In this document: positions 9,328-16,436 of the stretch, one piece after another
Layout: the number at the start of each line of letters is the position of its first letter
Numbering within the stretch: position 1 is the stretch's first letter
NCBI GenBank assembly: GCA_021462855.1
Contig: JAJTXQ010000041.1
Span: 1-64,000, forward strand
DNA length: 64,000 nt
DNA from: Dehalococcoidia bacterium
GTDB lineage: Bacteria; Chloroflexota; Dehalococcoidia; DSTF01; JACRBR01
Reading direction: 5' to 3'
Made by a program: the position numbers and the translations under genes
Notes under the pieces: generated by a model
What the model was told of the DNA's origin: nothing
What the model saw: the letters and a program-made list of their open reading frames with translations, nothing else
The model's database searches: none

Positions 9328-9939
9328 CTACGCGCGCAGTCGCTTGGCGTCCAGCGCCTCCGCCAGGCGGTCGACGGTGGCGCCGAGCTTCCCCGGCTCG
9401 TTGACGATCACGTAGGTGAATTCGTGCCGGCGTGCCATCTCGTCGCGCGCGGTGGCGAGGCGCCGCGCGATGCGCTCGTCGTCGTCCGAGCCGCGCGCGC
9501 GGATGCGCTCCTCCAGCTCGTCGAGCGACGAAGGCGCGATGAACACGAGCACCGCATCCGGCATCAGCCGCTTGATCGAGGCGGCGCCCTGCACGTCGGT
9601 GCGCACGAAGACGTCGATGCCCGATGCGAGCCTGTCGGCGACCTGCTGGCGCGGCACGCCGTAGTGGCGGCCGTAGACGAGCGCGTGCTCGAGCAGCCCG
9701 TGCTCTGCGATCAGCCGCTCGAACTCGGCATCGGTGACGAAGTGGTAATCGATGCCGTCGCGCTCGCCGTCGCGCGGCGGCCGCGTCGTGCACGTCACGA
9801 CGCGGTGGAACGCGTGCCCGCGCCGCGCCAGCTCGTCGAGCACGGCGTCCTTTCCCGCGCCCGATGGCCCGGACAGCACGACGAGCAGCGGCCGGCGGCC
9901 GGCGGCCTCGCGCGCCTCCGTGCGCCGTGCCTCGCTCAT
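9328..9939 (-). CDS. gmk: Guanylate kinase
   Basis: Converts GMP to GDP with ATP. The P-loop LSGPSGAGKDAVLDEL near residue 22 is followed by the GMP-binding region TTRPPRDGERDGIDYHFVT and YGRHYGVPRQQV, and by the lid Arg-rich segment RIRARGSDDDERIARRL. The 203-residue length fits. The start codon overlaps the aroA stop by four bases (ATGA), so it is translationally coupled to aroA. About 18 residues precede the first strand, a slightly long but common N-terminus. Confidence 0.95.
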   Translation of the reverse strand: MSEARRTEAREAAGRRPLLVVLSGPSGAGKDAVLDELARRGHAFHRVVTCTTRPPRDGERDGIDYHFVTDAEFERLIAEHGLLEHALVYGRHYGVPRQQVADRLASGIDVFVRTDVQGAASIKRLMPDAVLVFIAPSSLDELEERIRARGSDDDERIARRLATARDEMARRHEFTYVIVNEPGKLGATVDRLAEALDAKRLRA

Positions 9940-11219
9940 GCGCGCAGCCGCTCCAGGTCGTCCCAGAACGCCGGGTACGACACGCTGACCGCCTCCGCGC
10001 CGTCGATGCGCACATCGCCCGTGCCGCAGAGCGCGGCGACCGCAAGCGCCATCGCCAGGCGGTGGTCGCCGAATGACCGCACCGCCCCGCCGCCGATCGC
10101 GCCGCCCTCGATAGCCATGCCGTTGTCGCGTTCCTCGACTCGCACGCCGAGCGCCTGCAGCTGCGAGGCCGTCGTGGCGATGCGGTCGGACTCCTTGACG
10201 CGCAACTCCCCGGCGTCGCGCACCTCCGTCGTGCCGGCGGCGCGGGCAGCGGCCACCGCGAGCGCGGGCGCCTCATCGATCATCCGCGCCACGGTGTCGC
10301 CCGCGACGACCACGCCCTCGAGCCGGGACGAGCGCACGACGATGTCCGCGACCGGCTCACCGCCCACCGTCCGCTCCTCGCCGGTGCTGATGTCGCCGCC
10401 CATCGCACGCAACGCGTCGATCAGCCCCGTGCGCGTCGGGTTGATGCCGACGCCGGTCAGCGTGATCTCCGCATCCGGATGCGCCAGTCCGGCGACGATC
10501 CAGAACGCCGCGGCGGAGATGTCGTTCGGCACGCGCATCGACAGCGGCGAGAGCGCGGCGGCCGGGCGAATGCTCACCGCGGCGCCCTCGCGGCGCACGT
10601 GCGCGCCCATCGCCGCGAGCATGCGTTCGGTGTGGTCGCGCGCGGGCGCCGGTTCCTCGACGATCGTCTCGCCTTCGGCGTAGAGGCCGGCGAGCAACAC
10701 GGCTGACTTCACCTGCGCGCTCGCGACGGGCATGGCGTAGCGGATGCCGCGCAGCGCGCCGCCGCGCACGGAGACCGGGGCCAGCCGCCCGCCGTCGCGC
10801 CCGTCGATGCGCGCGCCCATCTGGCGCAGCGGCTCGGCGACGCGCGCCATTGGCCGCGTGCGCAGCGATGCATCGCCGGTCAGCACGCTGTGGACATCGT
10901 ATCCAGCGAGTACGCCGCACATCAGGCGCATGGTCGTGCCGGAGTTGCCGCAGTCGAGCACGCCATCGGCCTCGCGCAGCCCGCGCAGTCCGGCGCCGCG
11001 CACGCGCAGCGTCGCGCCATCGAGCGACCAGTCGGCGCCGAGCTGCCGCAGCACGGCGAGCGTCGACATGCAGTCATCGCCGGGGAGGAAGTTGTGCACG
11101 GCCGCCTCGCCCGACGCGAGCGCGTTGAGCATCGCTGCCCGATGCGAGACCGACTTGTCGCCCGGCACGGATATCGTCCCGCGCAGGCGGCGCGCCGGCG
11201 AGATCGTTCGGGTGGTCAC
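9936..11219 (-). CDS. aroA: 3-phosphoshikimate 1-carboxyvinyltransferase (EPSP synthase)
   Basis: Transfers enolpyruvate from PEP to shikimate-3-phosphate in the aromatic amino acid pathway. Key motifs are PGDKSVSHRAAM near the N-terminus, CGNSGTTMRLM, RPMARVAEPLRQMG, the catalytic Asp/Glu region KESDRIATTASQL and FGDHRLAMAL near the C-terminus. The GNSGTT form and the overall pattern resemble Bacillus-type (class II) enzymes. At 427 residues it is full length. The GTG start at 11219 overlaps the tyrA TGA as GTGA, and the stop overlaps gmk; the triplet tyrA-aroA-gmk is therefore tightly coupled. The start is set by the overlap and by the conserved start of the first domain 12 residues later. 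Confidence 0.95.
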   Translation of the reverse strand: MTTRTISPARRLRGTISVPGDKSVSHRAAMLNALASGEAAVHNFLPGDDCMSTLAVLRQLGADWSLDGATLRVRGAGLRGLREADGVLDCGNSGTTMRLMCGVLAGYDVHSVLTGDASLRTRPMARVAEPLRQMGARIDGRDGGRLAPVSVRGGALRGIRYAMPVASAQVKSAVLLAGLYAEGETIVEEPAPARDHTERMLAAMGAHVRREGAAVSIRPAAALSPLSMRVPNDISAAAFWIVAGLAHPDAEITLTGVGINPTRTGLIDALRAMGGDISTGEERTVGGEPVADIVVRSSRLEGVVVAGDTVARMIDEAPALAVAAARAAGTTEVRDAGELRVKESDRIATTASQLQALGVRVEERDNGMAIEGGAIGGGAVRSFGDHRLAMALAVAALCGTGDVRIDGAEAVSVSYPAFWDDLERLRA

Positions 11220-12217
11220 GGGCGCTTGCCCTCGGCGCGATCCTCGGCGGCGCGGACGATCTCCTCCTGTTTGCGCATGAACTCCGCCACGCGCGAGCCG
11301 AGCAGGAAGTCGCTGAGACTGACCTTCGGCAGCGCCTGCGCCTGGTGGCGCATCGGCGGGCCGTCGGCGAGGTAGTTGTCGCGCTCGATCTGCGCGCGCA
11401 TGAAGGTGCCGAGGAGGTGCTTCGCATCTTCGCCGGCGATCGCCGCGCGGTAGCGGCGCAGCTCTTGCTCGAAGCGGTCGATCCAGTGCAGCACGTTCTC
11501 GCGGTTCGTCGTCATGATGTCGTGCGCCATCTCCGGCGAGCCCGATGCGAGCCGCGTCGTGTCGCGGAAGCCGCTCGAGGCGAGGGCGGCCAGCTCGGGC
11601 CACGCCGCGCTGCCGAACGCCATCGAGAACAAGGCCGACGACAGCACGAGCGGCAGGTGGCTGATCGCCGCGACGTAGCTGTCGTGCTCCTCGGCATCCA
11701 TGAACATCGGCTCGGCGCCGGCCGCCTGCGCGAGGCCGACGACGAGGGGTATCGCGCCATCGCTCGCATCGACCGCCGGCGAGATTACCCACGGCTTGCC
11801 GCGGAACAGCTCCGCATCCGCCGCGTCGATGCCCTGGCGCTCCTTGCCGGCCATCGGGTGCCCGCCGACGAAGCTGGCGTGCGCGGGCAGCGACTCCTTC
11901 GCCCAGCGCGCCACGAGCGCCTTGGAGCTGCCGGCGTCGGTGACGGTCGCGCCCTCGGCGAGCGCGGGGGCGATCTCGGCGAAGACGTCGCGCGTCGTCA
12001 CCAAGGGCGCGGCGACGATCACGAGCCGGGCGCCGCGCGCCGCGTCCGCGGCATCGCGAGCTTCGACATCGATCGCGCCGGCCTTGCGTGCCTTCTGCGC
12101 CGTCTGCCGGCTGCGCGCGACGCCGGCGATCTCGATGTCGCGGATGCCGGCGGCCTTGAGCGCGAGCCCGATCGACCCGCCGATCAGCCCCAGCCCGATG
12201 ATCGCGATGCGTTCCAC
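11216..12217 (-). CDS. tyrA: Prephenate/arogenate dehydrogenase
   Basis: NAD(P)-dependent oxidative decarboxylation of prephenate or arogenate toward tyrosine. The N-terminus VERIAIIGLGLIGGSIGLALK is the Rossmann dinucleotide fold; FVGGHPMAGKERQG carries the catalytic His; SHLPLVLSSALF begins the helical dimerisation domain. At 333 residues it lacks a separate ACT domain, so feedback control by tyrosine through ACT is unlikely. The GTG start is preceded by GGAGG. The stop overlaps the aroA start. The C-terminal 45 residues are charged and helical (LLGSRVAEFMRKQEEIVR). Confidence 0.94.
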   Translation of the reverse strand: MERIAIIGLGLIGGSIGLALKAAGIRDIEIAGVARSRQTAQKARKAGAIDVEARDAADAARGARLVIVAAPLVTTRDVFAEIAPALAEGATVTDAGSSKALVARWAKESLPAHASFVGGHPMAGKERQGIDAADAELFRGKPWVISPAVDASDGAIPLVVGLAQAAGAEPMFMDAEEHDSYVAAISHLPLVLSSALFSMAFGSAAWPELAALASSGFRDTTRLASGSPEMAHDIMTTNRENVLHWIDRFEQELRRYRAAIAGEDAKHLLGTFMRAQIERDNYLADGPPMRHQAQALPKVSLSDFLLGSRVAEFMRKQEEIVRAAEDRAEGKRP

Positions 12218-14050: not shown

Positions 14051-15085
14051 TCAATAGCTCGCGACGAGCGTCTCTTCTTCCGTCGGCAGGCTGCGCTTGA
14101 TCACGTCGAGGTACTCGAGCGCGACGCCGGCGCCGATCGCGACGCAGTCCATCGGGTTCTCTGCCACCTGGCACGGGATGCCGGTCTCCTGTGTCAGCAG
14201 GATGTCGAGGTGGCGCAGCAGGGCGGTGCCGCCCGTCAGCACGATGCCGCGGTCGATGACGTCGGACGCGAGCTCGGGCGGCGTGCGCTCGAGCACCGTC
14301 CGCACGACCGACACGATCGTGCCGAGGTTATCCTGGATCGCCGCGGTCACGTCGCTGGAGTGCACGGTGATCGTCTTCGGCAGGCCGGTGATCTGGTCGC
14401 GGCCGCGCACCTCCATCGACAGGTCCTCGTCGAGCGGCACCGCGGCGCCGATCGCGATCTTCACTTCTTCCGCCGTGCGCTCGCCGACGAGCAGGTTGTA
14501 GCGCCGCTTGATGTAGGCGACGATCGAATCATCGAGCCGGTCGCCGGCGACACGCACGCTCTCGCTCACGACGATCCCGTACATGGAGATCACCGCCGCC
14601 TCGGTGCGGCCGCCGCCGATGTCGACGACCATGTTTCCGCTCGGTGAGTTGATCGGGATGCGCGCGCCGATCGCCGCGGCCAGCGGCTCCGGCACCAGGT
14701 GCACCGGCCGGCGCCCGCCCGCCTGCTCCGCGGCGTCGCGCACGGCGCGCTGTTCCACGCTCGTCACGCCGGCGGGGATGCACACCATGATCTCGGGTTT
14801 GATGATGTTCAGGCGCCCGACGACGCGCGAGATGAAGTACCGCAGCATCGCCTCGGTGATCAGGTAGTCGGCGATCACGCCGTCGCGCATCGGGCGGATG
14901 ACCGAGATGCTGCCGGGGACGCGGCCCATCATCTCCTGCGCCTCGCGGCCGACGGCGACGACGGTGTTGTCGCGGTTCGCCAGCGCGACGACCGAAGGCT
15001 CCTTGACGACGATCCCGCGGCCTTTCACGTACACCAGCACGTTCGCCGTGCCGAGGTCTATGCCGATCCGCTTCGGAAGAAGCAT
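14051..15085 (-). CDS. mreB: Rod-shape determining actin homologue MreB
   Basis: A 344-residue actin-family ATPase that organises wall synthesis along the inner membrane. The phosphate 1 motif is [16 protein letters not shown], phosphate 2 is [16 protein letters not shown], and the adenosine motif is [15 protein letters not shown]. The start at 15085 is supported by a GGAGAGGGTGGAGGG site and by the conserved N-terminus. It follows murA by 91 bases on the same strand, so murA-mreB may be one transcript linking precursor synthesis and shape. The usual mreC and mreD partners are absent downstream. Together with murA and alr it indicates a peptidoglycan wall. Confidence 0.95.
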
Positions 15086-15176
15086 CTGCCCTCCACCCTC
15101 TCCGGGGAACCTGCCGGGAAGTCTGCGCGATACCGGGGACGCGGGGTGCCCCCTGCGCACCGGCCAGCGTAACGGA

Positions 15177-16436
15177 CTACGCCCGTTCGATCGATGCGCC
15201 AAGCGCGCTGAGTTTAACATGCAACGCTTCGTGCGCACGGTCAATATGGAAGACGTCGCTGACTTCGGTCGTGCCTTCGGCGACGAGTCCGGCGAGCACG
15301 CACGCGGTGCCGGCGCGCACGTCGAGCGCCTTCACCGGCGCCGCCGACAGGCGCGTCGGGCCGCTGATGATCGCCGTCTGGCCGGCGGTGATCACATCGG
15401 CGCCCATCTTTCGCAGTTCGCCGATGTACAGCATGCGGTTGTCGAACACGCGCTCGTTGATCGTGCTGACGCCGCGCGCCTGCGTCAGGAACGCCGCCAG
15501 CGGGGGGTGCAGGTCCGTCGCCAGGCCCGGGTACGGCACCGCCTGCGCGCCGATCGCGCGGTAGTCGCCGCTGCCCCGCACGCGCATACCAGCATCCGTC
15601 GGCTCGATCTCGACGCCGGCCTCGCGCATCTTCGTGATCAGGGCGTCGAGATGCTCCGGGATCGCTTCCTCGATCTCGACCTCGCCGCTGGTGATCGCGG
15701 CCGCGAGCGCGAACGTGCCGGCCTCCAGCCGGTCGGGGATGACGCGGTGCTCGACGCCACCGAGCTCGCGCACGCCATTGATGCGCACGGTGTGCGTGCC
15801 GGCGCCGCTGATGCTCGCGCCCATCGCGTTCAGCATGTCGGCGAGGCTCGCGACCTCGGGCTCGCTCGCCGCGTTGATGATCGTCGTGGGACCGTCGGCG
15901 AGGGCGGCTGCCAGCATCACGTTCAGCGTGCCCATGACGCTCGGGTAGTCGAGCACGACGCGCCCGCCGCGCAGCCCGTCCGGCGCCGTCGCGACGAACA
16001 TCGCCTCGCGCCGCGCTACATCCGCGCCGATCGTGCGGAAGCCCGAGAGGTGCACATCGAGCGGGCGGATGCCGATGACGTCGCCGCCGGGCGGCGGGCA
16101 CGCCGCGCGGCGGAACCGCCCGAGCAGCGATCCCATGACGAGGAATCCGGCGCGGATGGGCGTCGCCAGGCTCGCCGGCACGTCGAGCTTGTCGATGTTG
16201 GCGCAGTTGATGCGCAGCGACGACGGGCCTTCGTGCGCGACGGTCGCGCCGAGATACTCCAGGAGCTCTTCCATGCGACGCACGTCACCGATGGCAGGGA
16301 CGTTGTGCAGCACCACGTCGGCCGCCGTGAGCAGCGCGGCCGCAATCGCGTAGTCGGCGGCGTTCTTCGACCCGCTGATGCGCACGCGGCCCTTGAGCCG
16401 GGCCCCCCCGGTGATGCGGAAGCGCGCGTCTGTCAT
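15177..16436 (-). CDS. murA: UDP-N-acetylglucosamine 1-carboxyvinyltransferase with Asp in place of the fosfomycin-target Cys
   Basis: First committed step of peptidoglycan synthesis: enolpyruvyl transfer from PEP to UDP-GlcNAc. Conserved features are [11 protein letters not shown] (Lys24-Asn25), [21 protein letters not shown] (catalytic Asp region) and the C-terminal [13 protein letters not shown]. At 419 residues it is full length. In the mobile active-site loop the sequence is [14 protein letters not shown], where Asp119 takes the place of the Cys (Cys115 in E. coli) that fosfomycin alkylates. The same natural replacement in Mycobacterium and Chlamydia enzymes keeps activity and gives intrinsic fosfomycin resistance. 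A TATCCT box eight bases before the ATG suggests a leaderless message. Confidence 0.95.

Follow-up and report, generated by a model that had tools for sequence, protein, structure and literature searches.

An Asp-type MurA encoded in a Dehalococcoidia genome: predicted fosfomycin insensitivity and the history of the active-site residue

MurA (UDP-N-acetylglucosamine 1-carboxyvinyltransferase) transfers enolpyruvate from PEP to UDP-GlcNAc in the first committed step of peptidoglycan synthesis, and fosfomycin inactivates Cys-type enzymes by bonding to the thiol of Cys115. The window analysed here, a stretch of 64,000 nucleotides from a Dehalococcoidia bacterium, encodes a MurA for which an earlier note, made from the sequence alone, had claimed an Asp in the place of this Cys. 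The locus raises the questions of whether this residue is real, whether the protein is an orthodox MurA that would be insensitive to fosfomycin and whether the Asp speaks for selected resistance or for ancestry.

The murA gene and its product

The murA gene lies at 15177-16436 on the minus strand (419 aa, with the stop codon within these coordinates). Bases 16080-16082 were read directly as GTC on the plus strand, i.e. GAC on the minus strand, and the encoded Asp119 falls in the same column as Cys115 of E. coli K-12 MurA (NC_000913.3) in a MAFFT alignment. The loop PPPGGDVIG, from which the substitution had been proposed, is present in the translated ORF with the Asp as residue 119; residues 116-124 of this active-site loop (PGGDVIGIR; 16065-16091, minus strand) end in Arg124, the counterpart of E. 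coli Arg120. Codon, ORF translation and E. coli alignment all agree on an Asp in place of Cys115, and the coordinates and residue number of the earlier note were correct. The Asp column was also invariant in a 24-sequence alignment built from the true MurAs of 40 searched genomes. Because the same Asp occurs in 25 other true MurAs and this column does not vary, Asp119 is, on these comparisons, no accident of sequencing or alignment.

The product scored 477.4 bits against the MurA profile TIGR01072, passing the curated equivalog cut-off of 392.7, and 75.3 bits against the aroA profile, below the cut-off of 287.25. Its best PDB sequence match was 6q0a (2.8e-107), and the solved structures closest to it in sequence are MurAs. 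An AlphaFold2 model (mean pLDDT of 93.9) gave a TM-score of 0.97 to 3sg1 in a fold search in which MurA structures reached up to 0.97 and the matches included the Cys-to-Asp MurA variants 6q0a (C. difficile C116D) and 3v4t (E. cloacae C115D). These two carry the same residue at the equivalent position (42% and 41% identity, respectively; TM-score of 0.97) but are laboratory variants of Cys enzymes, whereas the Asp is natural in the Dehalococcoidia protein.

Ten listed active-site residues were kept in the MAFFT alignment, namely K22, N23, R91, R120, H125, D305, R331, D369, R371 and R397 of E. coli, with K24, N25, R95, R124, H129, D308, R334, D372, R374 and R400 as their Dehalococcoidia counterparts. 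The catalytic and PEP-binding set (i.e. K22, N23, R120, D305 and R397 in E. coli numbering) was kept in full. According to passages of a review (PMC4790336), fosfomycin is held by K22, R120 and R397, and D369 may have a role in PEP binding. The E. coli enzyme resembles the Dehalococcoidia protein in these ten residues and in overall sequence (40.7% identity) but has Cys115, the fosfomycin target, where the latter has Asp, and differs at some neighbouring positions, among others Lys160 (Tyr164 in the Dehalococcoidia protein), Val161 (Pro165), Gly164 (Met168) and Leu370 (Val373). Likeness to the Asp-type MurA of Mycobacterium extends to the PGGD loop, the ten residues and a His at E. coli position 125, with 44.7% identity to the enzyme of Mycobacterium sp. 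GA-1199, although the phylum is another and the loop region reads AACPPPGGD in the Dehalococcoidia protein as against AKVALPGGD in Mycobacterium.

Genomic setting and fosfomycin insensitivity

A second, Cys-type MurA elsewhere in the genome, which the earlier note had named as a finding that would speak against resistance, was searched for in the assembly (3.02 Mb, 76 contigs, 97.47% completeness, 4.41% contamination) and was not found. The only genes of the EPSP-synthase family (PF00275) found there were murA and aroA, both in the window. The aroA gene (9936-11228, minus strand) scored 410.7 bits against TIGR01356 (cut-off of 287.25) and adjoins a prephenate-dehydrogenase-like gene, the two ORFs spanning 9936-12217 on the minus strand and overlapping by a few bases. 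A loop-pattern match at G000:C8 (L053) was rejected as a second MurA, being a chance match at which tblastn with the window MurA found nothing. One MurA match each was present in seven of seven same-family genomes. The absence of a second MurA holds as far as a 97.47%-complete assembly reaches; a further copy could in principle lie in a missing part.

Directly downstream of murA lies mreB (14051-15244, minus strand, with an uncertain start; scanned as 14051-15118), which scored 463 bits against TIGR00904 (cut-off of 365.75). In 66 of 80 named loci, of Asp and Cys types alike, mreB likewise follows murA on the same strand at a distance of no more than about 3.4 kb; some of the other 14 loci stop soon after murA. 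This arrangement speaks for the murA genes of both types being orthologues. Other peptidoglycan genes occur in a cluster on contig C6, where MurF, MurD, FtsW, MurC and Ddl were over their cut-offs and MraY (185.7 versus 192.05 bits, in an over-extended ORF) and MurG (249.9 versus 250.25 bits) were just under theirs. MurB on contig C6 and MurE on contig C28 were also over cut-off, as were three transpeptidase domains by the Pfam cut-off, one of them inside the C6 cluster; none of the NCBIfam penicillin-binding-protein models reached its cut-off in the genome. With this pathway in place, the organism is expected to synthesise peptidoglycan and to depend on the MurA encoded at 15177-16436.

Paralogues of MurA with other jobs exist, NikO having been a fold match at 23-24% identity, and the Asp could be read as the mark of a different reaction carried out by a NikO-like or other enolpyruvyl transferase. 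Such a role is scarcely credible for a protein that scores above the TIGR01072 equivalog cut-off, shares 36-45% identity with the listed solved MurAs as against 23-24% with NikO, and is the only MurA candidate found in an assembly that also holds the peptidoglycan pathway. With high confidence, the 15177-16436 product is assigned as an orthodox MurA of the Asp type, the only one found in the genome, which should be insensitive to fosfomycin.

In the proposed mechanism, the acid-base role that Cys115 has in the loop would be taken by Asp119. The enzyme should be insensitive because a carboxylate in place of the thiol would not be inactivated by fosfomycin; both activity and insensitivity are predicted here by analogy with characterised Asp-type MurAs. 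The available passages of PMC4790336 report full activity and complete fosfomycin insensitivity for E. coli C115D MurA, a natural Asp in the MurAs of M. tuberculosis, C. trachomatis and B. burgdorferi, and sensitisation of the M. tuberculosis and B. burgdorferi enzymes by an Asp-to-Cys change. The earlier statement that natural Asp variants are active and insensitive matches these passages, and the insensitivity that it predicted appears reasonable for the enzyme, given the insensitivity of characterised Asp-type MurAs in the same passages and the lack of a second MurA among the genes found.

The protein also contains Cys113 (16098-16100, minus strand), six residues ahead of Asp119. Attack by fosfomycin at this residue is not expected, since it is aligned with E. 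coli Val109, away from the catalytic position. In the class, a Cys is often found five or six residues ahead of the catalytic Asp (compare L003-L028), and 57 of 120 Asp-type and 7 of 51 Cys-type proteins of the tree set described below have one among the eight residues that precede position 115. A nearby Cys was considered as a substitute target and rejected: it is frequent in the class but missing, for example, in the Tepidiforma MurA (L086), and was treated as a lineage feature.

Distribution and history of the residue

The closest named sequences came from metagenome-assembled genomes labelled Chloroflexi, Chloroflexota or Dehalococcoidia, the named relatives being RBG_16_68_14, Dehalococcoidia PFL39 and Tepidiforma, whose MurA (L086) is of the Asp type. 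A true MurA was present in 26 of the 40 searched genomes (own included) and carried Asp in all 26. Thirteen genomes had no MurA match and one (G027) had an AroA-like match only; some of these 14 are incomplete (down to 54%) and others are 97-99% complete. The missing MurAs fit PMC10608941, according to which Dehalococcoidales and the SAR202 cluster have lost cell-wall genes that are present in basal lineages such as Tepidiformales. An extra, short fragment in one genome (G013; L031, residues 172-234) does not cover the site.

A loop pattern with the residue left open matched in 163 of 400 Chloroflexota genomes, MurAs with other loop residues being missed by it. Among the matches listed (150 rows, only partly confirmed as MurA), Asp occurred in 103 rows from 102 genomes, Cys in 42 rows from 42 genomes and other residues in five rows. 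Of the latter, the G000:C8 row is no MurA, the MurA of G106 (Cys-type) and that of G287 (Asp-type) lie elsewhere and G409 has no MurA match in its genome; the fifth row belongs to G371. One Asp row (G061) was rejected as MurA, the MurA of that genome being Cys-type. Among 30 hand-picked genomes, mostly from families missed by the loop pattern, 29 had a MurA, with Asp in 24 and Cys in five. Asp is more frequent than Cys in this Chloroflexota sample. A search by titles of the literature on MurA, fosfomycin and peptidoglycan in the phylum or in Dehalococcoidia found none on the MurA residue in Chloroflexota, which is no proof of absence.

For the trees, 199 loci were matched and 28 were dropped (4 weak or partial, 24 duplicates), leaving 171 proteins, 120 with Asp and 51 with Cys. 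Both choice and the PGGD pattern used in part of the retrieval bias this set, and the sequences of the retrieval that drew partly on this pattern were kept out of the frequencies. On these quick trees, made without bootstrap and with no root inferred, the residue changed between Asp and Cys four times, versus about 44 in shuffles, and again four times when columns 115, 125 and 163 were removed. One Asp-free group held 48 of the 51 Cys rows with an SH-aLRT value of 98, or 93 without the three columns (the latter value read after re-rooting by script, such that labels may be misplaced), and the branch above it was poorly supported. The Cys rows outside this group were E. coli, L163 and L194. The last of these (G357:C2:978822-980069) comes from a large Chloroflexota genome that also encodes an Asp-type copy (G357:C1:3692552-3693847), so both kinds occur together in some members of the phylum; another genome (G303) has two Asp-type copies. 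Lys22 was missing in four of the 120 Asp rows, which may not be ordinary MurAs. Although the tree is unrooted and contains few outgroups (E. coli, three Mycobacterium and one record labelled Bacillota), these patterns suggest that Asp is the old state in Chloroflexota.

A selective origin of the Asp, as a resistance to fosfomycin that arose in this organism or in a recent ancestor, would agree with the insensitivity of Asp-type enzymes reported in the passages of PMC4790336. This explanation is nevertheless very unlikely, as the presence of Asp in all 26 true MurAs and the mere four changes on the 171-row tree point to an old, inherited residue. Additionally, no gene of the GlpT-type transporter family reached cut-off in the genome (best score of 47.9 versus 407.75 bits, a cut-off reached in 2 of 14 control genomes), so there is no sign of fosfomycin uptake through such a transporter. 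Judged from the sequences compared, Asp119 is the usual state of the lineage and is inherited. As Asp is usual in the lineage, insensitivity would stem from ancestry and would not speak for selection by fosfomycin.

Coupled change at positions 115, 125 and 163

At position 125 (E. coli numbering), 118 of the 120 Asp rows had His, and 46 of the 51 Cys rows, or 46 of 48 within the main Cys group, had Asp. The Cys rows without Asp125 had His (L034, L063 from E. coli, L163 and L194) or Gly (L182). Val163 occurred in 110 of the 120 Asp rows and His163 in 44 of the 51 Cys rows, and the position changed nine times on the tree. Cys-type examples from Chloroflexota are L039-L049 and L105-L113. An independent-pairs sign test of 115 with 125 and 163 found three pairs on starred branches with a median p of 1, i.e. 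too few changes for significance, and the 115/125 coupling rests mainly on one event. Since E. coli MurA combines Cys115 with His125, a Cys115-Asp125 pair is not required in general. It is tentatively proposed, as a possibility short of an even chance, that in Chloroflexota the Asp type is old and the sensitive Cys type arose essentially once in the main line together with a change of His125 to Asp (and often of Val163 to His), in a joint rearrangement of the catalytic residue and the positions around it.

The prediction of insensitivity is sound but ordinary, concerning a known natural variant that is typical of the lineage, and the coupled 115/125 change is the one mildly new observation. 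The natural Asp-type MurA, cited from three pathogens in the passages of PMC4790336, is extended by these data to a large environmental phylum. Fosfomycin insensitivity predicted from Chloroflexota metagenomes would mirror ancestry and not acquired resistance, and the coupled change offers a testable idea about the requirements for a MurA to exchange Asp for Cys or the reverse.
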